From: Duncaniella freteri
Lineage (GTDB): Bacteria; Bacteroidota; Bacteroidia; Bacteroidales; Muribaculaceae
DNA length: 64,000 nt
NCBI RefSeq assembly: GCF_004766125.1
Contig: NZ_SJSA01000001.1
Span: 434,001 to 498,000 of the forward strand
Direction: 5' to 3'
Part shown: positions 14,210 to 46,706 of the stretch, in pieces
How positions within the stretch are numbered: the first letter of the stretch is position 1
How the letters are laid out: every line of letters starts with the position of its first letter
The notes under the pieces: model-generated
What the model saw: the letters and a program-made list of their open reading frames with translations, nothing else
What the model was told of the DNA's origin: nothing
The model's database searches: none
Position numbers and translations under genes: made by a program

Positions 14210-14830
14210 TTATTCACTCTGCCTGGTGAGCACAAAATCCTCTTCGCCCACCTCATATTTCAGCAAAGCACCCTTTATCTTCACGTCATCCATATGTCGA
14301 AGCGATGCATACCTAACGGAGAGAGCCTGCTTTATACCCTCGGCAATACGAGCCCTAACTTCAGGGTTCAGAGCATCAGTGGCGGGATTCCCCATCACCA
14401 TAGGACTGCCGTTGGCAGCAACAGCCTTGGGATCAACATCCACAACAAGCGATGCCACATCCATGCTCAGTGCCATCTCATCATCATCCACCACCGTCCA
14501 GGTGCCCGAGATAGTGGTATGCGCAGCCGCCGAAAGCTGAATCGGCTCCGCAAAAGCACTGTCCACCACCTGGGTAGAGACATTGACCATCCCTGACACA
14601 GTGACAGCCCCGGTGAGAGTCTCATTGGCTGTCATTGATGCAGGTGAAAACTCATAAGTGTCAATTATGGATGCCGAAATGGCAGAATTGTCCGAGATCG
14701 CCTCGGGAGTCCCTTGCCACACACCGGGAATCTCCTTGGCAAACCGTGCTTCACTATTACTACAAGCCACCAGCAATGAGCCGATAGCCAACAACTCCAA
14801 CATCGGAACGAACGATACTAAGGATTTCAT
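14210..14830 (-). CDS. Putative lipoprotein, 206 aa, function unknown
   Basis: The N-terminus has a signal peptide with lipobox LLVAC at about residue 19-23, so the protein is likely lipidated and in the envelope. The remaining sequence alternates small polar and hydrophobic residues (VSGMVNVSTQVVDS, ISGTWTVVDDDEMALSMDV), suggesting a beta-sandwich or lipocalin-like structure that ends in a helix (ARIAEGIKQALSVRYASL). I do not recognise the family. It borders the AT-rich island and its long upstream region shares no box with the next gene. Confidence 0.7.
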   Translation of the reverse strand: MKSLVSFVPMLELLAIGSLLVACSNSEARFAKEIPGVWQGTPEAISDNSAISASIIDTYEFSPASMTANETLTGAVTVSGMVNVSTQVVDSAFAEPIQLSAAAHTTISGTWTVVDDDEMALSMDVASLVVDVDPKAVAANGSPMVMGNPATDALNPEVRARIAEGIKQALSVRYASLRHMDDVKIKGALLKYEVGEEDFVLTRQSE

Positions 14831-14909
14831 AATTCAATAAAAACATACATTATTTACATTAATAACATATAATTATAAAAAATTGTTTCCTAATAATTAA
14901 TAAATTTCA

Positions 14910-14917
14910 TATATTTG
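14910..14917 (+). promoter_or_regulatory. -7 box upstream of the island
   Basis: TATATTTG matches TAnnTTTG 73 bases before ATG 14991 and could drive the transglutaminase-like gene and those after it. The AT-rich context makes chance matches likelier. Confidence 0.45.
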
Positions 14918-14990
14918 CACTTGATAAATCAACTTAAGGACACACAATTTTCTTAATCATTCTTCTAATAATTATTGCTATAAAACACCG

Positions 14991-15941
14991 ATGACAAACA
15001 CACCAATAAAACACATCGTCAGCATAACAATAGCAACAATCTATTTGACCATCCTAAATGGATGCCATGGAAGCTCAGAACTTGAGCGTGCTCTTGACAT
15101 GGCTGGAAATAACCGTCACGAACTTGAGACTGTACTTAATCATTATAGGACTGATTCGTTAAAATATCAAGCCGCGGTATTCCTCATAGAGCACATGCCC
15201 TACCAACGAGGCATAGCATATGAGGATACAATACGTCTGTACACCTATTACAAGGCAATATCATCCTCTCATACAGACCCATGGATATTATGTGACTCCA
15301 TAAGAGAAGCTGATGGGCAATTCAATGCTCAGTTGAAGATAGTCCAGAACGATATCTGCGAGATCTCCTCATCATTCCTTATTGACCATATTGATGCTAT
15401 GTTTGATGCGTGGGCATCTCAACCTTGGGGTGATAAAATTGATTTTGACATGTTCTGTAATCATATTCTTCCTTACCGTCTGCGGGACGAACCACTTATG
15501 CCATGGGCAAGACAACTGTACGAACAATACAATCCAATACTCGACAGCATCAGAAAAAGCCCAGACTCCACTGATATTCGTGCAGCCGCAACAGTTATAT
15601 TGCGATATCTTCAACACCAGCGCATTATATTCACTCACGCAATACCTCAAGGTGTTAATGTTGGCATCAAGAATGTGGATTGGAAGATCGGAGACTGCAA
15701 GGAATTTACAGATATCCTTACATGGGTGCTTCGTTCGCTTGCCATACCTTGCGGATGCGACATGATGCCGGTACGTGGCGATAACAATGTGCCTCATTAC
15801 TGGAATTATATCATTGATAACGATGGTCAGTCATGGTATGGCTCAATAGGCTATGCCGAAAGTGAATACAAAGCACCTAACACATATTGGATCCCAAAGG
15901 GAAAGTATGGAGAGAATGTTACGCTCTCAACAGAGGATTGA
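14991..15941 (+). CDS. Transglutaminase-like lipoprotein, upstream half (frameshifted)
   Basis: The 316-residue product starts with a lipoprotein signal (LTILNGC, Cys near residue 24). It has a transglutaminase-like core: the nucleophile motif GDCKEF near 242, LRSLAIPCGCDMMPVRG, then HYWNYI near 268 with the catalytic His. The full-length family continues into a discoidin-like domain, but here the frame ends at 15939-15941. The continuation is in the -1 frame at 15887-16951. Just before the end the DNA reads C CCA AAG GGA AAG, three overlapping slippery heptamers in phase. So this is either an inactivated gene, a sequencing error, or a frameshift-expressed one. Confidence 0.85.
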   Translation: MTNTPIKHIVSITIATIYLTILNGCHGSSELERALDMAGNNRHELETVLNHYRTDSLKYQAAVFLIEHMPYQRGIAYEDTIRLYTYYKAISSSHTDPWILCDSIREADGQFNAQLKIVQNDICEISSSFLIDHIDAMFDAWASQPWGDKIDFDMFCNHILPYRLRDEPLMPWARQLYEQYNPILDSIRKSPDSTDIRAAATVILRYLQHQRIIFTHAIPQGVNVGIKNVDWKIGDCKEFTDILTWVLRSLAIPCGCDMMPVRGDNNVPHYWNYIIDNDGQSWYGSIGYAESEYKAPNTYWIPKGKYGENVTLSTED

Positions 15942-16951
15942 GCAGGAAAATGCATGCCATGACTAACAGTAGAAATATACATCCTGCATTTCGCTATCCT
16001 ACCATACAGGATGTTACTGCTTTATATGCCAATCCCAAATGTTTAAGTTTTAATATTCATGCAGATCGTTTATATAGATTACCCGTCAATGACGAGCCTT
16101 TGTATCTATGCATGTCGAGTTCCGACAAGTGGATACCTGTTGATGTGATTGAATTTGCAGCAAAAGATAGTACTGTCAGAATCAAAGATGTTGAGGGAGA
16201 TGTGGTATTTCGTATAGCCACGTCTTCAGGCGACCGATTGAATTTCATTGCACCACCATTTCTTGTCGATCGCAGGACTGGCGAATTACATTGGTATGAA
16301 ACGTCCTCTTCAGATAAAGAACAGGTATGCCTTCTTCATAAATTTAATCTTCGTACCGAGCCATTTGGACAAAATATGATTGGAGGCATTTTCGAGGGTA
16401 GTAATAATGCTGATTTCCATTTAAGTGACACACTGCACATTATAAATAAATTTCCTGATAGACTTTATAACCTAGCACATATCACACATTCGAGCAAATA
16501 TCGATATGCCCGATACAGAGGAATCAAAAGCGGCTCATCTGACATTTCGGAACTGACATTCATTAATGATAAAGATCTTCCCATAAAAGGGAAACCTATA
16601 TGCAATATAAATGAACTGACACTAGTGAACGCATTTGACGGAGATCCCTACACATCATTTCATACTGTAGAGAAAGATGCTTGGATAGGACTTGAATTTG
16701 ATGAGCCATGCATCATTTCGTCAATAATATTCACCCCTCGAAATCGCAAAAACTATATACAACCTGGCAACAGATATGAACTGTTCTATTGCAATAATGA
16801 GGGATGGGCAAGTGTTGGATCATACACGGCGAAAAGTGATTCACTGTTATACGATGTACCAAGAGGTTCTCTGCTCTTCCTGAAAAATCATACAGAAGGT
16901 AACCAGGAACGCATATTCGAGTACCGTAATGGAAAGCAAATATGGTGGTAA
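15887..16951 (+). CDS. Transglutaminase-like lipoprotein, downstream half (discoidin-like)
   Basis: This frame continues the previous gene. It runs from DPKGKVWRECYALNRG and RYPTIQDVTALYAN, which fit the middle of the family, to a C-terminal discoidin-like (F5/8 C) sandwich: NAFDGDPYTSFHT near 245-257, WIGLEFDEPCIISSI, GNRYELFYC, then the typical end LLFLKNHTEGNQERIFEYRNG. It has no signal peptide, and the first in-frame codon that could initiate is a TTG inside the overlap. It is thus probably not an independent gene. The overlap of the two frames is at least 55 bases. Confidence 0.8.
   Translation: MDPKGKVWRECYALNRGLSRKMHAMTNSRNIHPAFRYPTIQDVTALYANPKCLSFNIHADRLYRLPVNDEPLYLCMSSSDKWIPVDVIEFAAKDSTVRIKDVEGDVVFRIATSSGDRLNFIAPPFLVDRRTGELHWYETSSSDKEQVCLLHKFNLRTEPFGQNMIGGIFEGSNNADFHLSDTLHIINKFPDRLYNLAHITHSSKYRYARYRGIKSGSSDISELTFINDKDLPIKGKPICNINELTLVNAFDGDPYTSFHTVEKDAWIGLEFDEPCIISSIIFTPRNRKNYIQPGNRYELFYCNNEGWASVGSYTAKSDSLLYDVPRGSLLFLKNHTEGNQERIFEYRNGKQIWW
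15893..15905 (+). other. Triple overlapping slippery run at the frame switch
   Basis: The bases CCCAAAGGGAAAG occur in the zero frame as C CCA AAG GGA AAG. They therefore contain CCCAAAG, AAAGGGA and GGGAAAG, each of the X XXY YYZ form, and a -1 slip at any of them enters the downstream frame. A weak 5-bp stem (gagag 15910-15914 with ctctc 15924-15928) starts 4 to 10 bases after the possible slip sites, the distance of known stimulatory structures. Confidence 0.5.
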
Positions 16952-16972
16952 ATCTTAATTAATACTCAATAT

Positions 16973-17839
16973 ATGAAACATCTAATATATTTATCTATTC
17001 TAATACTTACTATCATTGTCACATCATGTGCTCAAAATGATAAAGCAAGAGTAATGGAGCATGTCGGACAGTGGTTTGGTCGACATTTACATCTGCCTAC
17101 ACATATCATTGATGCCTTAACAGGCGACACTATCAGTATGTCTGATTCAGAGTTCACAATACTTACATACATCGACAGCCTTGGATGTACGAGATGTAAG
17201 ATGAAACTACATCTATGGAATGAATTTCTCGGCTCGTTGGATTCTATAACTGAATCCGATGTAGTCGCGCTCATGGTGATACACACCTCCGATTCTCGTG
17301 GCATCAGATATCAACTTAAAATTGACGGCTATGAATATCCTTCATACATTGATAGTACCGACATAATAAACAAGCACAACGCATTCCCTTCCGAACTGAT
17401 GCTTCAGACGTTTCTCCTCGACTCCTCTCATCACGTGATTGCCGTCGGGAATCCGGTATACAACAATAGAATAGCCAATCTTTATAGAGATATCATATCT
17501 GGAGGGAAAATAGTTACTCAAGCAGGCTCCATCGGTATTATGGTCAACGTAAGGTCACTTGATATCGGAGATATACATCTCGGAGAGACTGCAAATCATA
17601 ACTTTGTGTTAAAGAATGTGAGTGGTGACACAGTAAACATACGCAAAATGATATCATCCTGCGATTGCACGGTTGCGGAAGTTGAAAATACTTTGATTGT
17701 TCCTGGAGACAGTGCTACCATATATGTCTCGTTCAAAGAAGACTCTATAACAGGACGGTTTAACCGCACTGTTCACGTTTTTTACGATCAATTCACAAAT
17801 CCGACAAAACTTGAAATCACAGGAAACGTAATAAAGTAA
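16973..17839 (+). CDS. Lipoprotein with thioredoxin-like region and DUF1573 domain
   Basis: A 288-residue lipoprotein (lipobox IVTSC near residues 15-19). The middle section resembles a thioredoxin/peroxiredoxin-like fold with a redox-type CTRCK near residue 73. The C-terminal third is a DUF1573 (HYDIN-like Ig) domain: LDIGDIHLGETANHNFVLKN, then the hallmark SSCDCTVAE near 228 and GDSATIYVSF. DUF1573 proteins are Bacteroidota envelope proteins, often beside propeller lipoproteins as here. It starts 21 bases after the discoidin-like half, consistent with one operon. Confidence 0.82.
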   Translation: MKHLIYLSILILTIIVTSCAQNDKARVMEHVGQWFGRHLHLPTHIIDALTGDTISMSDSEFTILTYIDSLGCTRCKMKLHLWNEFLGSLDSITESDVVALMVIHTSDSRGIRYQLKIDGYEYPSYIDSTDIINKHNAFPSELMLQTFLLDSSHHVIAVGNPVYNNRIANLYRDIISGGKIVTQAGSIGIMVNVRSLDIGDIHLGETANHNFVLKNVSGDTVNIRKMISSCDCTVAEVENTLIVPGDSATIYVSFKEDSITGRFNRTVHVFYDQFTNPTKLEITGNVIK

Positions 17840-17959
17840 TCTTAAATAATCCTATAAAATATGTAATACTCATAATCTATTATCTCGTCTTAACATAAGG
17901 CTTCCGTTGAAATGATACATACGGAAAAACAGTTTAAATCATCACAAAATAAAAATCGT

Positions 17960-18274
17960 ATGAAAAAAATCTTCATTCCCGCATTATTAGCATTAGCTAC
18001 AACAAGCGGAATTATGGGATATCACTCCCAAATCAATAATATTGAATCACTTAGCGATCTTGCCTTAATTAATATAGAGGCTCTTGCTGATGGAGAAAAT
18101 GTGTCTCCAGGATTTTCATGGGAATATTCAGATGGCAAGCCAATGCTTTTTGATTGTAACGCTAAAATTGGAGAATATATTTTTGGCATATCTAAAGAAT
18201 GTGGATTTCAAGTGGTCATGTGCCAAGGCGGAGGATCTGGATGTAATGAAAGAAGATGTCCTGAGCACGGATAA
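17960..18274 (+). CDS. NVEALA-family secreted peptide precursor
   Basis: A 104-residue precursor: a hydrophobic leader (MKKIFIPALLALATTSG), a short linker, LSDLALINIEALADGE with the NVEALA-type motif at residues 38-43, then a mature-like segment with five cysteines (66, 81, 88, 95, 100) and Gly/Arg-rich tail. The family is Bacteroidota-specific and of unknown function; NVEALA peptides commonly neighbour propeller and DUF1573 lipoproteins. The start is ATG 17960; upstream codons in frame lack a leader. The odd cysteine count would leave one free or intermolecular. Confidence 0.85.
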   Translation: MKKIFIPALLALATTSGIMGYHSQINNIESLSDLALINIEALADGENVSPGFSWEYSDGKPMLFDCNAKIGEYIFGISKECGFQVVMCQGGGSGCNERRCPEHG

Positions 18275-18289
18275 TCAAGTAATTATATA

Positions 18290-18298
18290 TATTTAATA
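18290..18298 (+). repeat. Left target-site duplication of decayed element
   Basis: TATTTAATA at 18290-18298 recurs exactly at 18977-18985, immediately outside the two inverted ends, as expected for a 9-bp target duplication. Confidence 0.65.
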
Positions 18299-18976
18299 CA
18301 TGTTGGTTGAATTAAATTCATGAATATTTATCTGCCCAATTGGACGATGATTAACGAAATTGACATATTGCATGAAAGCCAAGCTGCAATTTTACCTGCC
18401 ATACTAGTAAAAAGACCTTAGAACTGTTTTTCATTGTTTCGTGTCATCATAAGATTGTCGCTGATCTGAGAAAAAATATAGTTTCGATGCGTTTGCAGAA
18501 TTTCTTGTAGTCCCATGTTGGAGAACGCTAGTTCTTCTGATTCAATCCATATAGAATCTCAAGAGTTATGTTTGCGATCTCATATAGATTTTTCTAAACT
18601 ATGGCATTTAGACATCCTTTGTCTCCAAGCATCGGCATTGTCTCTTCCCATGATACAGCGTTTGGCTCTGTCGTTTTGACAAACTTTGACAAGCATTGAG
18701 TTTATGCAGAACACACCTTTGTAACCATCACAGCAACAACTTTGAAGTCAGAAAACTTCGAAACAATACCACTTCTTGACACATTTTCAAGTTCATTGGC
18801 ACGATTTCCGGCTAAATCCTTTCAGACTCCAAGTATTCTGACAAAACTTACCATGAAGTCGCGCATAAACCGAGGAATAGTAGTTAACGATATGGTTACC
18901 TCTGATTTACTAATAATCTGCAAGGTTATAGAACTTTTTATTTATCGATATTTATAAATTTAATTCAACCAACAAG
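18299..18976. mobile_element. Decayed insertion element with 29-bp inverted ends
   Basis: The left end CATGTTGGTTGAATTAAATT (18299-18318) continues to 18327. The reverse complement of 18948-18976 matches it at 26 of 29 positions, 18 of them in one unbroken run. The 9-bp repeat TATTTAATA flanks both ends. The 678-bp interior has no intact transposase: the longest coherent minus-strand reading, near 18600-18730, has several Cys residues but is short and interrupted. Its length and duplication size resemble IS1 relatives, but no transposase motif confirms that. It occupies most of the gap between the NVEALA and propeller genes. Confidence 0.75.
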
Positions 18977-18985
18977 TATTTAATA
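18977..18985 (+). repeat. Right target-site duplication of decayed element
   Basis: Second copy of TATTTAATA, directly adjoining the right inverted end at 18976. Confidence 0.65.
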
Positions 18986-18999
18986 TTTGACTCTATTAT

Positions 19000-19103
19000 A
19001 GCAAGTAGATAAATTAGAGAGAGCATATCATATGCAACATTAATTATACATAATATAAATGAATTTACTTAACATGTATTCGATTCTAATTCATTTACTT
19101 GCT
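19000..19103. repeat. Imperfect inverted repeat before the propeller gene
   Basis: agcaagtagataaattaga (19000-19018) and the reverse complement of 19085-19103 agree at 17 of 19 positions, closing a 66-base AT-rich loop. It lies about 46 bases before ATG 19150. It may be a transcript fold, a small element, or an operator; nothing else in it is recognisable. Confidence 0.5.
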
Positions 19104-19149
19104 CTTTCAATTATAATAATCTCTCTATTATATGCTAACAACTAATATA

Positions 19150-20268
19150 ATGAAAAATAGAATTGTCAAAGCATTAATTATGCTGACATGCATGACATCC
19201 TGTACACACAATCATAATGGCGATTATAATTATACAGAGGAGTATATTAATCTCAACAAAGTGACCGATGCCATTACTAATGATGTGGTTGACTCGATCA
19301 GCTATCTTGGATTGCCTGATATAAACGGCAACATACCGGTCAATGTTAACAAGCTGTATGTGGTCAACGGCACCATATACATCGGTGACTGCTGGCGTAG
19401 TAAGGTATTCGCATACGACCGGAAATCAGGAGTGCCGAAATTTGTGCTTGACAGCAGAGGATCCGGACCTGAGGAATATCTCGAAATAAGAAGCATCGCT
19501 ATCGATACAGCAGCTATATACATTGTGGATAATTACACACAACGCATGATGGTCTACGACAGTAATGACGGCAGCTATATCAGAACCATGAAAATGCCTG
19601 TGATAGCAGATGATGTGGAGACACTCGACGATGGTGGATTTATATTTGCATATATTCCGATGAAAGGGGTTAAGCTCGCAATCGACCAGCCGGAAAGCCG
19701 ACTGTTTGTAGTCGACAAAGACCTCAAAATACATGACTCATATCAAGAGGTTAAGGATGGAATTTATGATGCAATCGGCCAGCGGACAATATTCTCACGA
19801 TGCGATCAAGGCATAGTATTCAGCACGGCATCGATAGACGGATTCTTTATAATAGACCCCAAAGACCCGTCAAAGCAGACTTTGATCCGGCTGCCTTTCA
19901 CCAATGGGCTTGAAGGGAAATGGGATGTAGTTCCTGATGAAATATCAGGTTATCAGCATTTGTCATCCGTGCCGTATGTTTGTGGAGATAATATCTATAT
20001 ATCCTACACATCCGACAAGGGTTATGGTGAAAGTGTATTATGGAACTCCCGATACAACGGCATCCTACAGAATTCAAGTGACGACCTTAGCAAAGCTCTC
20101 ATTCCTATAGTCGGTACTTACGACGGATGCCTCATCGGGATGGTTGACGATTATGAGACTTACTCATACATGATTGAACAGGGCTTTGCGAAAGCACCCG
20201 ACAACGTATCGCAGCTCCTGAAAGATGGCAGTGGCATAGCCTTGGTGTTCTATAAAATGAAAAAATAG
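19150..20268 (+). CDS. Six-bladed beta-propeller lipoprotein
   Basis: A 372-residue lipoprotein (lipobox LTCMTSC near residues 11-17) of the Bacteroidota six-bladed beta-propeller type (PF17170-like). The blades recur as NKLYVVNGTIYIGDCWRSKV, AIDTAAIYIVDNYTQRMMVY, ESRLFVVDKDLKI and GDNIYISYTS. KFVLDSRGSGPEEYLEIRS is the characteristic family loop. Such proteins commonly neighbour NVEALA peptides, which suggests but does not prove that it binds or processes the peptide. Its 5' region is separated from the peptide gene by the decayed element, so it probably has its own promoter. ATG 19150 puts the signal at the N-terminus. Confidence 0.85.
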   Translation: MKNRIVKALIMLTCMTSCTHNHNGDYNYTEEYINLNKVTDAITNDVVDSISYLGLPDINGNIPVNVNKLYVVNGTIYIGDCWRSKVFAYDRKSGVPKFVLDSRGSGPEEYLEIRSIAIDTAAIYIVDNYTQRMMVYDSNDGSYIRTMKMPVIADDVETLDDGGFIFAYIPMKGVKLAIDQPESRLFVVDKDLKIHDSYQEVKDGIYDAIGQRTIFSRCDQGIVFSTASIDGFFIIDPKDPSKQTLIRLPFTNGLEGKWDVVPDEISGYQHLSSVPYVCGDNIYISYTSDKGYGESVLWNSRYNGILQNSSDDLSKALIPIVGTYDGCLIGMVDDYETYSYMIEQGFAKAPDNVSQLLKDGSGIALVFYKMKK

Positions 20269-20393
20269 CGATTCGACACTGAAAGCCAAATGACGTGTCA
20301 ATTATAAAATATCGATCTGACAAATGCCAAATAACTGAACAGAAAGATTACTTTTTATTCCATAATTTATGCGGTATTCTCACTGATTCTGCG

Positions 20394-20401
20394 TACATTT
20401 G
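20394..20401 (+). promoter_or_regulatory. -7 box of the arabinofuranosidase gene
   Basis: TACATTTG matches TAnnTTTG, 24 bases before ATG 20425. The -33 region is only AT-rich. Confidence 0.6.
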
Positions 20402-20424
20402 TGTGACACATTAATATATATAAT

Positions 20425-21972
20425 ATGAACCGAAAAATCTCATCTATGCTACTTGCCGCAGGTCTATTTTGCCCTGTGGTTGCGTCAGCCGACACAGTGA
20501 CGCTCAGAATGGACCAAATCAACCCTGAAGAAGTGATAATGCCGGAAATATACGGACAATTCGCCGAACATCTCGGAGCCTGTATATACGGCGGTCTGTG
20601 GGTAGGTCCGGAATCACCCATTCCAAACACACAAGGCTACCGCAATGATGTGCTCCAGGCACTGCGCGACCTCAAAGTCCCTGTGATGCGATGGCCGGGA
20701 GGATGCTTTGCCGATGAATACCATTGGCGCGACGGCATCGGTCCGGCTAAGGATCGTCCCACACAGGTCAACAACAACTGGGGAGGCACAATCGAGGACA
20801 ATTCATTCGGCACAAACGAGTTCTTCAACCTCTGTGAGCTCCTCGGATGCGAACCATACCTAAGCGGCAACGTCGGGAGCGGATCAGTTGAAGAGCTTGC
20901 CCAATGGGTGGAATACATCACCGCAGAGGACGGCCCTATGGCACGCCTGCGCAAAGAGAACGGACGCGAGAAGCCATGGAAGCTCAAATATCTCGGCGTC
21001 GGAAACGAAAGCTGGGGCTGCGGCGGCAACTTCACTCCCGAATATTACTCCGACGTATATCGCCGCTATCAGACCTACTGCCGCGAATTTTCAGGCAACA
21101 AGCTCTACAAGATTGCATCCGGCGCAAGTGATTACGACTACAACTGGACCGATATAGTTATGAAGAAAGCCCACTCCCACATGCACGGCATATCGCTCCA
21201 CTACTACACCGTGACAGGATGGAACGGCTCCAAAGGCTCTGCTACAGTATTCACCCCCGAGGACTATTACTGGACCCTCGGAAAATGCCTTGAGATCGAG
21301 CCTGTGATCGAAAAGCACGCCGCGATCATGGACAAATACGACGAAAAGAAACGCATCGGACTTCTTGTAGACGAATGGGGCACATGGTGGGACGTTGAAC
21401 CAGGCACCAATCCCGGACACCTGTACCAGCAGAACACCATGCGCGACGCGATGGTCGCAGCCCTGTCGCTCAACGTATTCCAGCGTCACACCGACCGTGT
21501 AAAGATGACCAATATAGCCCAGGTAGCCAACGTGCTTCAGTCCATGGTGCTCACACGTGGCGACAAAATGGTGCTTACACCCACCTATTATGTCTTCAAA
21601 ATGTACATCCCTCATCAGGGTGCCACACCGATACCTCTGGATGTCACCACAGTACGCAAGGATGTCCGCGACGGACGGTCCGTCGACATGCTTCAGGCAA
21701 CAGCCTCACGCAAGGACGGAAAGATCACCGTATCCCTCTCAAATGTCGACCTCGACAAAGAGATGGAAGTGACGATTGCTCTCGGCAACGAATCCAAGGC
21801 GAAGAACATCTCCGGAAATATCCTGACTGCCGGCTCGATTGACGACTACAATGACTTCGATAAGCCCGAAAAAGTAACCCTCAAGCCTTTCTCCGGGGCA
21901 AAAGCCGCCAAAGGCTCCATCAAAGTAAAACTCCCGGCAAAATCCATCGTCACACTCACATTTGAAATCTAA
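20425..21972 (+). CDS. Alpha-L-arabinofuranosidase, GH51
   Basis: A 515-residue secreted GH51 enzyme that removes terminal arabinofuranosyl residues from arabinan, arabinoxylan or similar glycans. A signal peptide covers residues 1-21 (ending VASA). The barrel has YGQFAEHLGACIYGG, PVMRWPGGCFADEYHWRDGIGP, the acid/base GNES (E195), and the nucleophile LVDEWG (E317). A C-terminal beta-sandwich follows. All catalytic residues are present and the length is typical. It has its own promoter and a strong terminator, with no polysaccharide-utilization partners in view. Confidence 0.95.
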   Translation: MNRKISSMLLAAGLFCPVVASADTVTLRMDQINPEEVIMPEIYGQFAEHLGACIYGGLWVGPESPIPNTQGYRNDVLQALRDLKVPVMRWPGGCFADEYHWRDGIGPAKDRPTQVNNNWGGTIEDNSFGTNEFFNLCELLGCEPYLSGNVGSGSVEELAQWVEYITAEDGPMARLRKENGREKPWKLKYLGVGNESWGCGGNFTPEYYSDVYRRYQTYCREFSGNKLYKIASGASDYDYNWTDIVMKKAHSHMHGISLHYYTVTGWNGSKGSATVFTPEDYYWTLGKCLEIEPVIEKHAAIMDKYDEKKRIGLLVDEWGTWWDVEPGTNPGHLYQQNTMRDAMVAALSLNVFQRHTDRVKMTNIAQVANVLQSMVLTRGDKMVLTPTYYVFKMYIPHQGATPIPLDVTTVRKDVRDGRSVDMLQATASRKDGKITVSLSNVDLDKEMEVTIALGNESKAKNISGNILTAGSIDDYNDFDKPEKVTLKPFSGAKAAKGSIKVKLPAKSIVTLTFEI

Positions 21973-22312: not shown

Positions 22313-23541
22313 CAGGGCTGGCGCATGAGATTTAACTCAAATTCAGTCAAAAATTCACCTGATTATGTGAAATAAACTTTCATATATTGCATATATTGCT
22401 GAAAATGGTTATATTAGAGGTATGCAAATAGAAATTTTCAGCAAAGTAAAAGACCCGCGCGACTTGGGCAAGGTTAAACATGAGCTTGAGGATGTGCTCC
22501 GAATGGCACTCATCGGCGTGTTGTGTGATTGTGAGGACTGTGACGACATATCGGATATGGTTACAGACCGAGAGGAAGAATTCAAGGCCACTGGATTGCT
22601 GAAGCTTGGCAACGGTGTCCCGTGTGGTGACACGATACTTCGTGTTGTAGAGTCTGTCAATCCCGCTCAGCTCCGGGCAAGTCTTGATTGCTGCCGAGGC
22701 CACATAATCGAATCCCTGTGCGGCAATCAGGTCATCATTGACGGTAAGAAACTGCGGGGTGAAAATCCCAGGAGTCCCGGATGCCACGGACTGTATATCC
22801 TCAATGCGTGGGTATCTGAAACAGAAATCTGCGTTGCCGAAAAGCCGGTGGATGGCAAGACCAACGAACTTACGGTTCTGCCGTCCGTATTGTCCTCTTT
22901 ATGGCTTACAGGGGCATTGGTTTCAGTCGACGCAATGGGGACCCACCGTAATATCGCAGAACAGATCATGCTCCAGGGCGGCGACTATCTGATGGCGCTT
23001 AAAGACAATCAGCCGATACTCAAGGGCTTGACGGAGAGTATCTTTAGTAGCACTACTCCAATATCGGTATACACAACCGAGGAAAAGGGGCACGGAAGAG
23101 TTGAGAAGAGAACCTGTTCAATTATGGATACGACACTTTTGGAACAGGAGGGAATGTACGAGAAGTGGCCCGGTCTTAAACGTATCATAAAGATGGAGCG
23201 TGAGCGTACTGAGAACGGTGCCCGCTCGCGTGAAACAATCTACTATCTCAGCAGCGTGGAGAAAGATGAGGCTTCTTACTATGCGATGCGTATTCGTGCG
23301 CACTGGGGTATCGAGAACAAACTGCACTGGCATCTCGACGTGACGTTTCGGGAAGATATGTGCCGCGTACGCGCCAAGAATGGCGCTGTCAATTTTTCAG
23401 CGATGCGCAAGTATGCATTGGAAATGCTTAAAAAGCAGAACGATAAACTCAGCCTTAAACGAAGACGCAAAAAATGTATGTGGAGCACTGAATATCTGTA
23501 CAAAGTCTTTAAGGATAGTTAAATCTCATGCGTCAGCCCTG
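22313..23541 (+). mobile_element. ISAs1-family insertion sequence
   Basis: A complete 1,229-bp element. The left end CAGGGCTGGCGCATGAGATT (22313-22332, continuing to 22337) matches the reverse complement of 23517-23541 at 24 of 25 positions. A 9-bp duplication flanks it. It carries a single transposase gene and lies inside the IS1182 transposase, so it is the younger insertion. Confidence 0.93.
22422..23522 (+). CDS. ISAs1-family transposase
   Basis: A 366-residue DDE transposase, intact from MQIEIFSKVKDPRD to the stop just inside the right repeat. Landmarks are the N-terminal ELEDVLRMALIGVLCDCED, the first catalytic Asp region VIIDGKKLRG, VSVDAMGTHRNIA, YLMALKDNQ, and the C-terminal HWGIENKLHWHLDVTFRED that holds the catalytic Glu. 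The length is typical and the element ends are intact, so it may still be mobile. Confidence 0.95.
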   Translation: MQIEIFSKVKDPRDLGKVKHELEDVLRMALIGVLCDCEDCDDISDMVTDREEEFKATGLLKLGNGVPCGDTILRVVESVNPAQLRASLDCCRGHIIESLCGNQVIIDGKKLRGENPRSPGCHGLYILNAWVSETEICVAEKPVDGKTNELTVLPSVLSSLWLTGALVSVDAMGTHRNIAEQIMLQGGDYLMALKDNQPILKGLTESIFSSTTPISVYTTEEKGHGRVEKRTCSIMDTTLLEQEGMYEKWPGLKRIIKMERERTENGARSRETIYYLSSVEKDEASYYAMRIRAHWGIENKLHWHLDVTFREDMCRVRAKNGAVNFSAMRKYALEMLKKQNDKLSLKRRRKKCMWSTEYLYKVFKDS

Positions 23542-23550
23542 GTTTTTTCT
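23542..23550 (+). repeat. Right target-site duplication of the ISAs1-type element
   Basis: Second copy of GTTTTTTCT, adjoining the right end at 23541. Confidence 0.9.
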
Positions 23551-25162
23551 GCTGAATCCCAACGAGGCCATCGCGGAAAACGACCCTGTGCGCGTTGTCG
23601 ATGCCGTTGTCGAGAGTCTTGACCTTAAGGAGTTTAAGAAGCTGTACAGTGAGCGTGGCCGCTGCCCTTACCATCCGAAGATGATGCTCAAAATCATTCT
23701 GTACGCCTACATGAACAATATCTATTCGTGCCGCAAGATTGAGCGTGTGGTGCAGCGCGACATCCATTACATATGGCTGGCGGCGCAGGAGCGTCCCGAC
23801 TTCGTGACCATCAACCGCTTCCGCAACCGTGTGAAAAAAGAGATAAACAATATCTTCACGCAGGTTGTGCTGCTGTTGTCCGAGCGCGGTTTTATCACAC
23901 TGGACGTGGAGTATATCGACGGAACAAAGATAGAGTCCAAAGCCAACAAATACACCTTCGTCTGGCGGAAGACCGTAGAAAAGAACCGTGCAAAACTACA
24001 GGAGAAAATACGCGTCCTTCTGCAACAGATAGACGAGATTATAGCGCAGGATAAAGCTGCAGAGTCTGAGCCGGTGGAGTTCACTCCCGAAACCCTTGAT
24101 ACCCTTATCGGTGAACTCAAAGACGCACTCGCGGCAGAGCCCGCCCCTGTGTATAATGAGCAGAAGAAGCAACGTCGCCGACAAAAGAAGCAGATAAAGG
24201 AACTGGAGAAGCATCGCGACAAGCTCGAGGAATATGACAGCCGTCTTGAACAGATCGGCGAGCGCAACTCCATATCCAAGACCGACCCCGACGCCACGTT
24301 CATGCGCATGAAGGAAGACGCCATGAACAACGGCCAGACCAAGCCTGGATACAATCTTCAGATCTCTGCCGAAAACCAGTTCATCACCGACTTTGCCCTG
24401 TTCCCCAATCCCACCGACACACTGACACTGATACCGTTCTTCAACGCCTTCCTTGACCGCTACGGACATCTGCCCTCTGTCGCCGTCGCCGACTCCGGCT
24501 ATGGCTCGGAAGAGAACTACCGCTTCATGGACGAGGCCGGCATGGAGGCTTACGTCAAGTACAACCGCTTCCATCTGGAACAGCGTCCGCGCTACAAACC
24601 TAATCCATTCCATCACGACAACTTCCACTACAACGCCACCGAGGACTATTACGTATGCCCGATGGGGCAGCACATGACCCGCATCGGCACCTCCCACACA
24701 AAGACCGCAAGCGGCTACCGCAGTGAAAACGCGCGATACCGCGCTCACAACTGCAAGGGCTGTCCACTGCGATGTATGTGCTACAAGGCCAAAGGCGACC
24801 GACGTATAATCGAAGTTAACCACCGACTCAACGAATACAAACATAAAGCCCGCGAGCTACTCACTTCGGAGGAAGGCATCCGACATCGCGGACGACGATG
24901 TATCGAGCCCGAGGCTGTCTTCGGACAAATGAAGTTCAACATGGCATACCGCCGCTTCCGGCACTTCGGCAAAGACAAGGTCACGATGGACTTTGCCTTC
25001 TTCGCCATAGCCTTCAACATCAAGAAAATGTGTTCAAAAATAGCGAAACAGACCAAAAACGGGGGAAATACGCCCCATTTTGGCCTGTTTTTACATATAT
25101 ACCCGATTTTAGACTCAGAGAATCGGATATTTTGGACAAATCCTCAAAAATCAGTCGCCTGA
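23551..25162 (+). pseudogene. IS1182 transposase, 3' part
   Basis: The remaining 536 codons of the IS1182-family DDE transposase. NEAIAENDPVRVVDAVVESL opens the conserved N-terminal domain, GRCPYHPKMMLKIILYAYM and RPDFVTINRFRNR follow, then YIDGTKIESKANKYTFVWRK with a catalytic Asp, AVADSGYGSEENY, and the C-terminal RRCIEPEAVFGQMK with the catalytic Glu. A local start inside the duplicated bases could give a product lacking only about 19 residues, but the intact N-terminus is lost, so it is called a pseudogene. Confidence 0.88.
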
Positions 25163-40687: not shown

Positions 40688-42475
40688 ATGTCGATTGATA
40701 GCATCATATCCGAAGCCGTGTCACGTGCAGTCAAAGAGCTGTACGCTACCGACACTCCCGCCGACAGTATCGTACCTCAAGCCACCCGCAAGGAGTTTGA
40801 AGGCAATGTCACTGTGGTAGTGTTCCCATGGGTCAAGGCGGCACGCAAATCACCCGAGGCTGTCGGGACTGAGATAGGCGAATGGCTTGTGAACAATGAG
40901 CCGGCAGTTGAAAAATTCAACGTCGTGAAAGGCTTCCTTAACCTCACCATCGCTCCCGGATTCTGGAACTCAGTGCTCGCACATATAGCCGACACCCCCG
41001 ACTACGGAATGAAAGCGGCTGATGAGAACTCCCCACTTGTTATGGTGGAATACTCATCACCGAACACCAACAAGCCTCTCCACCTGGGGCATATACGCAA
41101 CAATCTCCTCGGATTCAGCCTCGCCGAGATACTCAAGGCATGCGGCAACCGCGTAGTAAAGACCAACATCGTAAATGACCGTGGCATACACATCTGCAAA
41201 TCGATGCTCGCATGGCAGAAGTGGGGCGACGGCGTAACCCCTGAATCTTCAGGAAAAAAAGGCGACCATCTGATCGGCGACTTCTACGTCCTTTTCGACA
41301 AGCATTTCAAGGCTGAGGTCAAGAGCCTCATGGAGAAAGGCATGTCCGAGGACGAGGCTAAGGCAGAATCTCCGCTCATGAAGGAGGCTCGTGAAATGCT
41401 CGTGAAATGGGAACAGAAGGACCCCGAAATCCGTGGACTCTGGCAGAAAATGAACGAATGGGTATACGCCGGATTTGACGAGACCTACAAGCGCATGGGT
41501 GTCGACTTCGATAAGATATACTACGAGAGCGAGACCTATCTCGAAGGTAAAGAGAAAGTGCTCGAAGGGCTCGATGCAGGCAAGATGTACCGCAAAGAGG
41601 ACGGATCGGTATGGGCCGACCTCACCGGCGACGGACTCGACCACAAGCTACTCCTGCGCAGCGACGGCACATCGGTCTACATGACACAGGACATCGGAAC
41701 AGCCAAACTGCGTTTCCAGGACTTCCCTATCGACAAGATGATATACGTCGTGGGCAACGAACAGAACTACCATTTCCAGGTGCTCTCGATCCTTCTCGAC
41801 CGCCTCGGATTCAAATGGGGCAAGGACCTTGTTCATTTCTCTTACGGAATGGTCGAACTCCCCGAAGGAAAAATGAAGTCACGCGAAGGCACCGTGGTAG
41901 ATGCCGACGACCTTATGGACGATATGGTGTCAACAGCCCGCTCTGTATCCGCCGAACTCGGCAAGCTCGACGGTCTCACCGATGAGGAGACCGCCGCTAT
42001 CAGCGAGATGGTAGGACTCGGCGCGCTCAAATACTTTCTACTCAAGGTTGATCCCCGAAAGAACATCACCTTCAATCCAAAGGAATCCATCGACTTCAAC
42101 GGCAACACCGGACCCTTTATACAGTACACCTACGCACGTATCCGCTCAGTGCTGCGCAAGGCTGCCGAAGAGGGAATGCAGGTCGAGGACCACTCAGCCG
42201 TGACACCTGGCGAACGTGAGATCACACTCATCCAGGCTCTCGCCGACTATCCGTCGGTTGTGGCAGCTGCCGGTCAGAGCTACAGCCCTGCTCTGATAGC
42301 CAACTATGTATACGACCTTGTAAAACTCTACAACCAGTTCTACCACGACTGCTCGATACTCAAGGAAACCGACACCGCGGTTCGCTCACTCAGGCTCAGA
42401 CTCAGCTCGCAGACCGCACGCGTCATCGAGTCAGGCATGAAACTCCTCGGCATCAGGGTACCCGAACGCATGTAA
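40688..42475 (+). CDS. argS: Arginine-tRNA ligase
   Basis: A 595-residue class I synthetase that charges tRNA-Arg. The HIGH-like signature is HLGHIRNNLLG near residue 130, and the KMSKS-equivalent KMKSREG lies near 397. The anticodon-binding domain ends with LLGIRVPERM. ArgRS is one of the few synthetases that needs its tRNA for amino-acid activation. It stands alone with its own promoter and a following hairpin. Confidence 0.97.
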   Translation: MSIDSIISEAVSRAVKELYATDTPADSIVPQATRKEFEGNVTVVVFPWVKAARKSPEAVGTEIGEWLVNNEPAVEKFNVVKGFLNLTIAPGFWNSVLAHIADTPDYGMKAADENSPLVMVEYSSPNTNKPLHLGHIRNNLLGFSLAEILKACGNRVVKTNIVNDRGIHICKSMLAWQKWGDGVTPESSGKKGDHLIGDFYVLFDKHFKAEVKSLMEKGMSEDEAKAESPLMKEAREMLVKWEQKDPEIRGLWQKMNEWVYAGFDETYKRMGVDFDKIYYESETYLEGKEKVLEGLDAGKMYRKEDGSVWADLTGDGLDHKLLLRSDGTSVYMTQDIGTAKLRFQDFPIDKMIYVVGNEQNYHFQVLSILLDRLGFKWGKDLVHFSYGMVELPEGKMKSREGTVVDADDLMDDMVSTARSVSAELGKLDGLTDEETAAISEMVGLGALKYFLLKVDPRKNITFNPKESIDFNGNTGPFIQYTYARIRSVLRKAAEEGMQVEDHSAVTPGEREITLIQALADYPSVVAAAGQSYSPALIANYVYDLVKLYNQFYHDCSILKETDTAVRSLRLRLSSQTARVIESGMKLLGIRVPERM

Positions 42476-42481
42476 CAACCC

Positions 42482-42526
42482 ACAACCGGAATGCCGGAAA
42501 TTAAACTTTTGGTCATTTCCGGTTGT
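42482..42526 (+). terminator. Hairpin after argS
   Basis: acaaccggaa (42482-42491) pairs with ttccggttgt (42517-42526), with the loop containing a further ccgg. It begins 7 bases after the argS stop and probably ends transcription. Confidence 0.7.
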
Positions 42527-42558
42527 CTAATAATAAACTTAACATAGCTTATTTTAAT

Positions 42559-43284
42559 ATGTACAACGAAACTCCGACCCCTCCCCCATATAACGGCGGA
42601 GGTTACCAGTCTGCCTCACAGATCGCGTCCACCACATCATCAGTGATGAAACGTGTCTACCTAAAGATGACTCTTGGACTGCTCGTCACAGCATTCATCT
42701 CCATGTTCTGTGCGGGAAGCGCATCCTATATGCAGTTCATGCTCACACACTCATGGTTCTATTGGGGACTATTCATCGCCGAACTCGTATTGGTGTTCAC
42801 CCTTTCAGCCCGCATATCCAAGATGGCGTCCGGCACAGCCACACTGCTCTTCTATGCATTCGCGGCAATCAACGGCATGGCATTAGCACCCATATTCCTG
42901 CTCTACACGGCAACATCCATTGCCAAGACATTCTTCATCTGCGCCGGCACATTCGGAGCAATGAGCATCTATGGATATTTCACCACCCAGGATCTCACCA
43001 AATGGGGCAACTTCCTTTTCTATGCCCTCATAGGTCTCATCATTGCATCCGTTGTGAACATCTTCACCAAAAGCACCGGCCTTGATTGGGTGATCTCCTG
43101 TGCGGGTGTGCTTATATTCGTAGGTCTGACAGCCTGGGACACTCAGAAGATCAAGCAGATGGCACTCTATGCTCCCTCCAATATGATTGGTCATCTCGCC
43201 ACTCTGGGCGCGCTCTCCCTCTATCTCGACTTCATCAACCTCTTCCTCTATCTGCTGCGTTTCTTCGGAAGCTCACGCGATTGA
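42559..43284 (+). CDS. Bax inhibitor-1/YccA family membrane protein
   Basis: A 241-residue inner-membrane protein with seven hydrophobic segments. The N-terminus is Pro-rich (NETPTPPPYNGGG), and SVMKRVYLKMTLGLLVTAF opens the first segment. GLTAWDTQKIKQM near residue 200 is the typical BI-1 signature. YccA-type proteins modulate FtsH proteolysis or ion leakage. ATG 42559 is used because the TTG 12 codons earlier gives no useful residues and lies within the argS terminator region. Confidence 0.92.
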   Translation: MYNETPTPPPYNGGGYQSASQIASTTSSVMKRVYLKMTLGLLVTAFISMFCAGSASYMQFMLTHSWFYWGLFIAELVLVFTLSARISKMASGTATLLFYAFAAINGMALAPIFLLYTATSIAKTFFICAGTFGAMSIYGYFTTQDLTKWGNFLFYALIGLIIASVVNIFTKSTGLDWVISCAGVLIFVGLTAWDTQKIKQMALYAPSNMIGHLATLGALSLYLDFINLFLYLLRFFGSSRD

Positions 43285-43305
43285 TCCCAAGAAAAAACGA
43301 CGTGA

Positions 43306-43345
43306 AATGGCGGGTGATCATCACCTGTGAAGGTCACCTGCCATT
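43306..43345 (+). terminator. Hairpin after the BI-1 gene
   Basis: A 12-base arm at 43306-43317 pairs with 43334-43345, one G-T pair, over a 16-base loop. It lies 21 bases after the stop; there is no T-run. Confidence 0.55.
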
Positions 43346-43393
43346 CCCCTAACCTTATAACCCTATAACAATCGCCCTCGGGCGAATAATAAA

Positions 43394-44590
43394 ATGGCAA
43401 AAGTAGTAATCATAGGTTGCGGCGGCGTCGGCACCGTCGTTGCCCACAAATGCGCCCAGCACCCCGACGTGTTCAGCGAGATAGTGATCGCTTCGCGCAC
43501 CCGTTCAAAGTGTGAGGCTGTGGTTGAAACCATCGGCAAGCCAAATGTAAGTGCTGATGTCGTGGACGCCGACAGCGTTCCCCAGCTCGTAGAGCTCTTC
43601 AACCGTCACAAGCCTCAGCTCGTCATCAATGTGGCACTCCCCTATCAGGACCTCACAATTATGGATGCATGCCTCATATGCGGAGTGAACTACCTCGACA
43701 CAGCCAACTATGAGCCAAAAGATGTGGCACACTTCGAATACTCATGGCAGTGGGCATACAAGCAGCGTTTCGAGGAAGCAGGTCTTACTGCCATTCTCGG
43801 TTGCGGTTTCGACCCCGGAGTGTCAGGAGTATTCACAGCATATGCCGCCAAGCACCATTTCTCGGAGATGGAGTACCTCGACATAGTGGACTGCAACGCC
43901 GGAGACCACGGCAAGGCATTCGCCACCAACTTCAACCCTGAGATCAACATCCGCGAGATCACTCAGAACGGACGCTACTATCAGGACGGCAAATGGGTTA
44001 CAACCGGACCGCTCGAAATCCACAAGACACTCACATATCCCAACATAGGCGGGCGTGAAAGCTACCTCCTGTACCACGAAGAACTGGAGTCGCTCGTCAA
44101 GAACTTCCCCTCAATCAAGAGAGCTCGTTTCTGGATGACATTCGGACAGGAATACCTCACCCACCTGCGCGTGATCCAGGACATAGGCATGGCACGTATC
44201 GACGAGATCGACTACAACGGACAGAAGATAGTGCCGCTCCAGTTCCTTAAGGCAGTCCTCCCCAATCCTCAGGACCTCGGCGAGAACTACCATGGCGAGA
44301 CATCTATCGGATGCCGCATATCAGGCAAGGACAAGGAAGGCAAGCCTCTGACCTACTATATATGGAACAACTGCTCTCACGAGGCAGCCTATAAAGAGAC
44401 CGGAATGCAGGCTGTAAGCTACACCACCGGCGTGCCGGCAATGGTCGGAGCCATGATGTTCCTTACCGGCAAGTGGGTAAAACCTGGCGTGAACAACGTC
44501 GAGGAATTCGATCCCGATCCGTTCCTTGCCGAGCTTGCAAAGGACGGTCTCCCTTGGAACGAGACCTTCAATCAGGATCTCGAAGTATAG
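43394..44590 (+). CDS. Carboxynorspermidine dehydrogenase-like (saccharopine dehydrogenase family)
   Basis: A 398-residue NADPH enzyme. The Rossmann motif is IIGCGGVGTVVAHKC near residues 6-20. NVALPYQDLTIMDAC, CGVNYLDTANYEPKD and LGCGFDPGVSGVFTAY are typical of carboxyspermidine/carboxynorspermidine synthase, which condenses aspartate semialdehyde with a diamine in the alternative polyamine pathway. The decarboxylase partner is not in the window. The final YTTGVPAMVGAMMFLTGKW agrees with the group. Transcribed alone, with a hairpin after it. Confidence 0.88.
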   Translation: MAKVVIIGCGGVGTVVAHKCAQHPDVFSEIVIASRTRSKCEAVVETIGKPNVSADVVDADSVPQLVELFNRHKPQLVINVALPYQDLTIMDACLICGVNYLDTANYEPKDVAHFEYSWQWAYKQRFEEAGLTAILGCGFDPGVSGVFTAYAAKHHFSEMEYLDIVDCNAGDHGKAFATNFNPEINIREITQNGRYYQDGKWVTTGPLEIHKTLTYPNIGGRESYLLYHEELESLVKNFPSIKRARFWMTFGQEYLTHLRVIQDIGMARIDEIDYNGQKIVPLQFLKAVLPNPQDLGENYHGETSIGCRISGKDKEGKPLTYYIWNNCSHEAAYKETGMQAVSYTTGVPAMVGAMMFLTGKWVKPGVNNVEEFDPDPFLAELAKDGLPWNETFNQDLEV

Positions 44591-44612
44591 CAAAAAACAT
44601 CCTACAGCACCG

Positions 44613-44649
44613 CAGGACCATGAAATCGCACCACAGATTCATGGTCCTG
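44613..44649 (+). terminator. Terminator of the carboxynorspermidine dehydrogenase gene
   Basis: caggaccatgaa (44613-44624) pairs perfectly with ttcatggtcctg (44638-44649) over a 13-base loop, followed by tggtctttta. Confidence 0.75.
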
Positions 44650-44758
44650 TGGTCTTTTATACACTAAGCCGTTTATTCCATCTAAAAAAATTTTGCAGTT
44701 CGGCAAATAGTTATTACTTTCGCGGTAGTAATGTTAAACTCACGAAATACTCCAAGAT

Positions 44759-45310
44759 ATGATATACAATTTCCGCATAGTCTCTGATGAAGTCGACAAT
44801 TTCAAGCGCGAAATACAGATTGATGCCGACGCTACATTTCTTGACCTTCGCAATGCCATATGTGACAGCGTAGGATACGACAAGACCCAGTTCAGCTCGT
44901 TCTTCATGTGCGATGAAGGATGGGAGCGCGAACAAGAGATATGCCTGGAGGATATGGGAAGCGACTCTTCCCAGGATGTGTATCTGATGGAGGACACTCC
45001 TCTGAGCGACTTTATAGAGGATGAGGGCCAGCGTCTTGTATGGGTGTTCGACTATCTCACTGACCGTTCATTCTTTATTGAAATGAAGCGATCTGTACCA
45101 GGGAAGCATCTTATCGATCCCCTATGCTCCGTGTCCATGGGAGAAGCACCGTCGCAGACAGTGGATATGGATGACTTTGATGCAAAGATCGATGCCAAAG
45201 CCGCACAGCAGGCGACCACCGATCTTGACGACGAATTCTACGGCTCCACCGAATACAATGAGGACGAATTCGAAGCAGCAGGCTTCGACGAAATGACCTT
45301 CGACGAATAA
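44759..45310 (+). CDS. Plasmid pRiA4b ORF-3-type protein
   Basis: A 183-residue protein with the PRiA4_ORF3 fold pattern: FRIVSDEVDNFKREIQIDAD, TFLDLRNAICDSVGYDKTQF, SFFMCDEGW and WVFDYLTDRSFFIEM. The C-terminal third is very acidic and low in complexity (DLDDEFYGSTEYNEDEF). The family appears on chromosomes and plasmids with no confirmed function. It stands alone, converging on tsaC. A possible -7 box (TTACTTTC) lies near 44712. Confidence 0.8.
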   Translation: MIYNFRIVSDEVDNFKREIQIDADATFLDLRNAICDSVGYDKTQFSSFFMCDEGWEREQEICLEDMGSDSSQDVYLMEDTPLSDFIEDEGQRLVWVFDYLTDRSFFIEMKRSVPGKHLIDPLCSVSMGEAPSQTVDMDDFDAKIDAKAAQQATTDLDDEFYGSTEYNEDEFEAAGFDEMTFDE

Positions 45311-45336
45311 TCCTCCATTCCAAGAAATATCATAAG

Positions 45337-45379
45337 AGTCATCGCGACACACTTTCCAGGAAAGTGCCTTGCGATGACT
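45337..45379. terminator. Hairpin between converging genes
   Basis: agtcatcgc (45337-45345) pairs with gcgatgact (45371-45379); the loop itself contains a second stem (cactttcc with ggaaagtg). A T-rich run follows on the plus strand. It probably ends both the pRiA4b-ORF3 and tsaC transcripts. Confidence 0.75.
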
Positions 45380-45395
45380 TTGTTATTTTACAGCA

Positions 45396-45995
45396 TCATA
45401 TCAGTTCGCCTTTTCCATCTCTGACGATTTCAGGATCGCGGCTGTCAGTGAGGTCGACCACCGTGGACGGGATGCCGTCACCCTCCCCTCCGTCAATTAG
45501 CAGCGATGCAATCCCGGCATACTCATCGGCAAATGCCGAAGGGTCACCGCACTCCTCATCCTGAGGGATGGAAGTGGAAAGCACCGGATGACCGAGGCGT
45601 TCGGACAGGGCTCGCGATATAGGGTTGTCAGGGATGCGCACACCCACTGTACGCCTCCCCTTAAATACCTTAGGCAATGTGGTTGCAGCAGGGAGAATGA
45701 AAGTGAACGGTCCCGGAAGATTGGAACGCAGTATCCTGAAAGCCTCATTGTCGATTCTTGCATACTCGCTTGCCATCGACAGTCCGTCACACACTATGGA
45801 CAGGGTCTGCTTCTGAGGATTCACACCTTTCACCTTGCATAGCCGTTCGATCGCCCCATTGTTCAATGCATCACACCCCATGGCATACAGGGTGTCGGTA
45901 GGATAAATGATTATTCCTCCTTTCTCAAGGACATCCACAGCCTCGTCAAGGAACCTTTCATTCAGGCTTGTGGGATACATGCGGAGTGTTTTCAT
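45396..45995 (-). CDS. tsaC: Threonylcarbamoyl-AMP synthase (TsaC/Sua5, YrdC domain)
   Basis: A 199-residue YrdC-type protein that makes threonylcarbamoyl-AMP for the t6A37 modification of ANN-reading tRNAs. KGGIIIYPTDTLYAMGCDA near residue 25-43, PGPFTFILPA near 94-103, and RTVGVRIPDNP near 115-125 are the family motifs. The start overlaps the stop of the B3/4 gene by 4 bases, so they are coupled. The Ile2-type tRNA seen at 29.4 kb is one of the tRNAs whose relatives need t6A. Confidence 0.92.
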   Translation of the reverse strand: MKTLRMYPTSLNERFLDEAVDVLEKGGIIIYPTDTLYAMGCDALNNGAIERLCKVKGVNPQKQTLSIVCDGLSMASEYARIDNEAFRILRSNLPGPFTFILPAATTLPKVFKGRRTVGVRIPDNPISRALSERLGHPVLSTSIPQDEECGDPSAFADEYAGIASLLIDGGEGDGIPSTVVDLTDSRDPEIVRDGKGELI

Positions 45996-46657: not shown

Positions 46658-46664
46658 AGCTCCG

Positions 46665-46697: not shown

Positions 46698-46706
46698 AAT
46701 AAATCG

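Follow-up and report, generated by a model that had tools for sequence, protein, structure and literature searches.

An NVEALA peptide island of Duncaniella freteri and its matched propeller lipoprotein: one cassette of a possible bacteriocin-like peptide system in Bacteroidales

What a short NVEALA peptide does among three lipoproteins, and whether such genes act together, are the questions raised by an AT-rich island in the genome of Duncaniella freteri (Muribaculaceae, Bacteroidales). The window, meaning the whole stretch of DNA analysed here (64 kb, positions 434,001 to 498,000 of contig NZ_SJSA01000001.1), is part of a 3.55-Mb genome of 5 contigs. Between a 206-aa gene and an alpha-L-arabinofuranosidase gene it carries four plus-strand genes, which encode a transglutaminase-like protein, a thioredoxin-like/DUF1573 protein, the NVEALA peptide and a six-bladed propeller. 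Comparison with related loci shows that the peptide is split into a leader and a core, that the core is matched to the neighbouring propeller, and that the gene set recurs and is present on plasmids. We propose, at roughly even chances, that the locus is one partly decayed cassette of a widespread, exported, bacteriocin-like peptide system of Bacteroidales in which the propeller provides immunity. The genes and peptide parts on which the argument turns lie as follows.

17960 to 18274, plus strand: NVEALA peptide precursor, 104 aa (PF14055; start taken from relatives)
18071 to 18088, plus strand: NIEALA motif, proposed leader cleavage site (motif statistics)
18089 to 18271, plus strand: hypervariable core, 61 aa with 5 Cys, ending GGGSGCNERRCPEHG (comparison of cores)
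19132 to 20268, plus strand: six-bladed propeller lipoprotein, proposed cognate partner of the core (PF17170, 84.2 bits; covariation)
16973 to 17839, plus strand: thioredoxin-like/DUF1573 lipoprotein, CxxC at 17186-17197 and CxC at 17660-17668 (PF07610, 72.9 bits)
14991 to 15941, plus strand: transglutaminase-like lipoprotein, first frame with lipobox, helical part and core (Cys-His-Asp candidates at residues 236, 269 and 276)
15887 to 16951, plus strand: transglutaminase-like gene, second (-1) frame, C-terminal F5/8-type-C (CBM32-like) part (PF00754 match)

A first-pass annotation, made from the letters alone, had named the transglutaminase-like core, the CxxC thioredoxin-like/DUF1573 region, the NIEALA motif with the five cysteines and the propeller, and each was found where it had been placed. 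The peptide scores 31.8 bits with PF14055 (32.2 in the genome search; cut-off 27), and its start is most likely at 17960 and not at 17912, where the earlier open reading frame (ORF) began, because relatives begin at MKK. The CxxC region was likewise correctly recognised as thioredoxin-like: both of its cysteines are invariant in all 17 aligned relatives, and the profile of the DUF1573 protein matches the thiol-disulfide oxidoreductase StoA (3erw, E 1.5e-4). Redoxin matches were under the cut-off in the two relatives scanned.

The peptide has two parts of different character. The leader has a hydrophobic start, is conserved across relatives and ends in N-x-E-A-L-[AST], and the core varies in both length and sequence. 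Cysteine accounts for 8.5% of the residues in the core and 0.9% in the leader, and the number of cysteines is even in 89 of 120 cores (81 of 110 once similar cores are removed). A-x-[AST] is a site of the signal-peptidase type, and here it stands about 20 residues past the hydrophobic stretch; at position -1, 116 of 120 peptides have A, S, T, G or C, and at position +3, 92 have E; the A at -3 was demanded by the search pattern and is therefore no evidence. The leader ends in ALA, not in the GG of double-glycine leaders. In two loci (L046 and L055), the same core stands behind different leaders.

The evidence that carries our proposal is the covariation of core and propeller. In a first set of 58 cassettes, core similarity correlated with propeller similarity (r 0.76), and the correlation was 0.21 for leader and propeller and 0.05 for core and leader; between genomes (1,549 pairs) the three values were 0.79, 0.07 and 0.00. 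When propellers were dealt anew within each genome, r reached at most 0.51, and the nearest core and the nearest propeller in another genome coincided for 26 cassettes against at most 14 in the control deal. An enlarged set began with 144 peptides, from which 13 were dropped (no clear motif or a short core); 120 of the 131 kept had a partner, defined as a 280-520-aa ORF within 1 kb downstream, a rule under which 94 were labelled propeller by profile and 26 were unlabelled yet counted. The correlation of core and partner was 0.80 within the same family (2,513 pairs), 0.53 within other families (963) and 0.20 across them (3,404), compared with maxima of 0.34, 0.48 and 0.13 in 500 within-genome deals each; leader and core correlated at 0.15. 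A third set came from 11 loci of named Bacteroides and Phocaeicola records, plasmid records among them, and of relatives, with 28 peptides, of which 4 were dropped and 3 had no partner. The 21 tested gave r 0.54 for core and propeller, and 2,000 permutations reached at most 0.26. Because sequences recur across the correlated pairs, it is the shuffles and not the pair counts that carry weight.

The core followed the shared proteins far less closely (DUF1573 0.15, transglutaminase 0.19, S26 signal peptidase 0.15, O-antigen-ligase-like protein -0.12, tetratricopeptide-repeat (TPR) protein 0.28). The leader correlated with the transglutaminase at 0.67 and with the O-antigen-ligase-like protein at 0.45, which may reflect shared ancestry. 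The window locus fits this pattern: for the six cores nearest to its own (itself included), the propellers rank nearest in identical order, and a search with its propeller alone matched one on a Phocaeicola plasmid that follows a peptide of the window core type. As the core tracks its propeller and other genes only weakly, and as leader and core are nearly independent, we conclude that each core has a cognate propeller, inherited with it as a unit on top of shared machinery.

Within the family, 31 of 297 genomes have a PF14055 match (E<=0.01); the counts are 23 of 393 for the order (E<=1e-4) and 2 of 296 for the phylum, both of these within the order, and copy number reaches 16 in one genome (G055). 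Of the first 41 loci (40 fetched and the window), 40 had the peptide, 37 a propeller of 280 aa or more, 26 a DUF1573 protein of 180 aa or more and 10 a transglutaminase ORF of 390 aa or more. The 36 loci from other families all had the peptide; a propeller was present in 29, a DUF1573 protein in 19, a transglutaminase-like gene and an S26 signal peptidase in 10 each, and an O-antigen-ligase-like protein in 11. Loci were picked for having the peptide, mostly by score order, and the profiles that gave the gene labels were trained on the same loci. In 52 family loci, of which 11 were fetched for their transglutaminase, S26 is present in 11, the O-antigen-ligase-like gene in 13 and the TPR protein in 20. 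The island S26 protein scores 82.1 bits with PF10502, and both the Ser and the Lys box are present in all 14 listed of 22 aligned sequences. A gene-set search thus removes the doubt, raised in the first-pass annotation, that the four genes might not co-occur elsewhere: they recur in many loci, beyond what chance would give, both outside the family within the order and on a plasmid of Phocaeicola. The matched core-propeller pairs and the wider islands with their own signal peptidase go beyond what had been described there.

The annotated 92.5-kb plasmid pPvulCL10_1 of P. vulgatus CL10T00C06 (NZ_CP096966.1, L178 and L183) carries the genes of the system in a row at 41696-51167, in the order NVEALA, propeller, redoxin, signal peptidase I, O-antigen ligase, hypothetical protein, transglutaminase and propeller. 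A peptide of the window core type, absent from the gene table, precedes the last propeller, and two further NVEALA-lipoprotein cassettes lie close by, so that several cassettes are scattered over this one plasmid. The island recurs with 99.9% identity on a plasmid of P. dorei, where a transposase interrupts it. Transglutaminase and peptide also occur together in islands, on chromosomes or contigs, of B. cellulosilyticus DSM 14838, B. bouchesdurhonensis, B. faecalis and B. faecichinchillae; contigs OY726023 and OY726033 are plasmids according to their records, which are unannotated, and we give them little weight as plasmids. One lead is that BT0662 (O-antigen ligase) stands near BT0664 (6-bladed beta-propeller) in a published table on the iron response of B. 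thetaiotaomicron (PMC10434189).

In the mechanism that we infer, the leader would target the precursor to the membrane and be cut at its N-x-E-A-L-[AST] end, most likely by the S26 signal peptidase of the larger islands. The core cysteines would be handled by the thioredoxin-like/DUF1573 lipoprotein, so that the mature peptide is probably disulfide-bonded. Two further proteins, the transglutaminase-like lipoprotein and an O-antigen-ligase-like one in the membrane, may serve as shared machinery acting on the peptide or its carrier. The hypervariable core would be the active part, acting on rival Bacteroidales, and the neighbouring propeller would be the dedicated partner that is swapped along with it and protects the producer. 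Lipobox-like starts were found in 124 of 150 distinct propellers, 49 of 59 transglutaminase-like proteins and 25 of 44 DUF1573 proteins. An acidic stretch after the lipobox is a surface-export signal, and in these three groups only 0.83-1.02 of the six residues after the lipobox Cys are acidic; the lipoproteins may therefore face the periplasm, which does not favour the earlier suggestion that the peptide is recognised at the outer membrane.

The picture that would follow is one of polymorphic peptide warfare, in which cassettes of a hypervariable core and its private propeller immunity lipoprotein draw on one leader type and one shared set of genes for maturation and secretion, a dedicated signal peptidase included, and spread between genomes and on plasmids; for this fuller version the chances seem to us a little short of even. 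Toxin and immunity are favoured by the matched partners, the several cassettes per genome, the carriage on plasmids and the propellers that lack a peptide. Of 141 propellers, 50 do not directly follow a peptide, which is what one would expect of orphan immunity genes; 24 of the 50 stand in tandem with a further propeller. A thiol protein of its own also fits the system, because Bacteroides are said to lack general disulfide machinery and the bacteroidetocins bring their own thiol oxidoreductase (PMC6671954).

Several observations weigh against this proposal. At the window locus itself the transglutaminase-like gene is broken, the labelled 25 kb contain neither an S26 signal peptidase nor an O-antigen-ligase-like gene, and the core class (GGGxGCN..CPxH ending) has five cysteines, an odd number. 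Elsewhere, best core match and best propeller match coincided in no more than 10 of 21 cases of the third set and 26 of 58 of the first, and in the small subset with an O-antigen-ligase-like neighbour the correlation of core and propeller was only 0.28. No C39-type or ABC peptide exporter was found among the recurrent neighbour clusters that were labelled or scanned, the remaining neighbours having had no Pfam scan. Finally, 24 of 148 peptides (including the 13 dropped) have no partner despite at least 1.8 kb downstream, which strict toxin-immunity pairing would not predict.

Two other explanations share much of the evidence, and we consider each of them unlikely. The system may be one of pheromones, in which the mature peptide is the signal and the propeller its own receptor, passing the signal to the TPR protein that stands first in many islands. 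Ligand-receptor pairs would yield the same covariation, and the TPR protein, where present in the labelled family loci, is often first in order. However, Pfam shows only weak repeats and no DNA-binding domain in this protein, its correlation with the core is low (see above), and many cores per genome, as in G055, would imply many parallel signals. It is equally doubtful that the propeller acts as a dedicated chaperone or scaffold for the folding, disulfide pairing or export of its own core, with no immunity involved. Such a role would account for propellers covarying with the core and not with the leader; moreover, the thiol protein is shared, so that core-specific guidance must come from elsewhere, and no obvious surface-export stretch follows the propeller lipobox. 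The propellers that do not directly follow a peptide, however, are left unexplained by a pure chaperone, and we know of no propeller chaperone of this kind, which also counts against it. A structural or nutrient role, in which the transglutaminase-like protein would cross-link a processed peptide that decorates the surface or carries a ligand, is the least probable: the carbohydrate-binding-like C-terminal parts of that family and a related peptide-free branch fixed beside a ribB-like gene would suit it, but hypervariable cores, matched partners and cassette exchange are unusual in structural proteins, and the transglutaminase-like gene is broken here, with the peptide and propeller frames still open.

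The transglutaminase-like core assigned by the first-pass annotation finds more support in the family than in the window copy, which scores 15.3 bits with Transglut_core, under the Pfam cut-off of 23. Nineteen of 34 relatives match that domain at E<=0.01 (best 5e-7), the family profile matches the transglutaminase structures 6g49 (E 0.0019) and 3isr (E 0.0076), and the core Cys and His are invariant in all 34, the Asp being present in the consensus only. Similarly, PF00754 gives 23.4 bits on the window copy, below its cut-off of 28.2, and 30 of the 34 relatives match it at E<=0.01. Most full-length relatives are single ORFs of about 580-690 aa; the window gene is split over two frames, with the change bounded by stops at 15878 (-1 frame) and 15939 (0 frame).

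15881 to 15941, plus strand: frame-change interval of the transglutaminase-like gene, including GGGAAAG at 15899-15905 (flanking stops)

The GGGAAAG heptamer is used as a shift site by phages, and here its phase is right. A programmed -1 frameshift is nevertheless disfavoured, as the heptamer occurs 7 times in the window against a chance mean of 6.5, and 11 intact homologues read the site in one frame. Plain decay is most likely. An assembly error is less likely, because identity to the nearest intact relative of full length reaches only 72% from end to end, although the window DUF1573 protein represents 33 member sequences; this argument is indirect, since clusters were formed at 90% identity and split pieces lay outside the length range searched. 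Of the earlier idea that the peptide is oxidised or cross-linked, a leader peptide with disulfide-type chemistry is consistent with the data, and cross-linking at the window locus is doubtful because the gene is frameshifted. The second NVEALA locus of this genome (L037, G000:C2:986000-1003000) is damaged too: its transglutaminase gene is reduced to the C-terminal half, its peptide is intact, and the start of its propeller gives way to a DUF4372/DDE transposase. Pfam gave no confirmation of the remainder of that propeller. Elsewhere, 87-aa ORFs directly before the peptide gene (L042:7778-8041 and L056:7781-8044) match the transglutaminase-like protein at its beginning and at its very end, and each represents an internally deleted copy.

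At the genome level, transglutaminase and peptide are linked: a transglutaminase match of at least 120 bits is present in 23 of 31 NVEALA genomes and 25 of 266 others (Fisher p 9.7e-15), with a profile built from peptide-linked members; without its 8 source genomes, 15 of 23 NVEALA genomes match. A single peptide-linked clade was not seen in the transglutaminase tree, which has 10 label changes against 16.8-16.9 in shuffles and in which one row (L123) was labelled peptide-linked on a peptide match without the motif. Twelve transglutaminase-like genes form a branch without NVEALA neighbours (L085-L090, L093, L094, L096, L099, L120 and L122), which in the inspected L087, L093, L096 and L099 adjoins a ribB-like gene at a fixed place and possibly represents an ancestral role. 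In six other loci (L168-L171, L173 and L177), a transglutaminase followed by an O-antigen-ligase-like gene forms a two-gene module with no NVEALA peptide.

Among known systems, the bacteroidetocins are similar in being exported Bacteroidales peptides with a leader, about 42 aa when mature, with four Cys and a thiol oxidoreductase encoded alongside. They differ in their 15-16-aa leaders, cut after GG by a peptidase-domain ABC transporter, and no immunity protein is reported for them in the paper (PMC6671954); the present system has the NxEAL[AST] leader end, a recurrent island S26 and a matched propeller for each core. BcpT is likewise an antibacterial product of a Phocaeicola plasmid, a proteolytically activated toxin, but it is a 499-aa lipoprotein and not a small leader peptide, and NVEALA, propeller and transglutaminase are not mentioned in the paper on it (PMC9308784). 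Other proteins with a transglutaminase core and an F5/8-type-C part share the invariant Cys and His and the structure matches; the family described here differs as a Bacteroidales lipoprotein with an N-terminal helical part, occurring with or without NVEALA peptides. Public annotation gives PF14055 the same neighbours as found here (6-bladed beta-propeller, BF3164 family lipoprotein and redoxin). In the literature searched, which lay outside subscription papers and preprints, so that an earlier description is possible, NVEALA does not occur by name and PF14055 occurs only in Plasmodium or general enzyme-prediction papers. A survey of Bacteroidales ribosomally synthesized and post-translationally modified peptides (RiPPs) mentions no propeller, transglutaminase, DUF1573, redoxin, thioredoxin or signal peptidase (PMC10352776). 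As far as searched, therefore, the function of the system, the core-propeller matching and the leader/core split have no description. None of 7 proteins matched the anti-phage defence models of PADLOC-DB.

A peptide family known by its motif only would thereby gain a testable logic, with the core as what is recognised, the propeller as the matching half and the leader as the means of release. If the propellers are immunity proteins, the family would supply many candidate antimicrobials of narrow spectrum for the gut, their resistance genes being known; with propellers as receptors, it would amount to a signalling code in common gut bacteria. For the strain with the plasmid island, P. vulgatus CL10T00C06, a barcoded transposon library and RNA-seq have been published (PMC13114119).

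It remains to consider how the island came to its present site. The first-pass annotation had suggested transfer from the local AT richness, and the GC content of the island genes is indeed 0.35-0.43, with 0.52 and 0.53 in the two flanking genes. Of 26 further genomes from the genus, the relative G184 alone was seen to have both flanks close together. There, DNA similarity ends at 14754 and restarts at 20488, and the flanking genes are spaced 2.4 kb apart compared with 7.8 kb here, so that the site is empty in G184. Low GC and the empty site fit horizontal gain, which is likelier, though not proven, than loss in G184.

14755 to 20487, no strand: AT-rich insertion relative to G184, outer limits (end of DNA similarity)
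18289 to 18986, no strand: 698-bp element with 39-bp terminal inverted repeats, 90% complementary (between peptide and propeller)

The 698-bp element has no long ORF and partial copies in 6 of 60 other genomes searched, and we regard it as MITE-like (a miniature inverted-repeat transposable element) or as a transposon remnant. Downstream of the island, at 22422-25162, transposase genes of the ISAs1 and IS1182 families adjoin each other.

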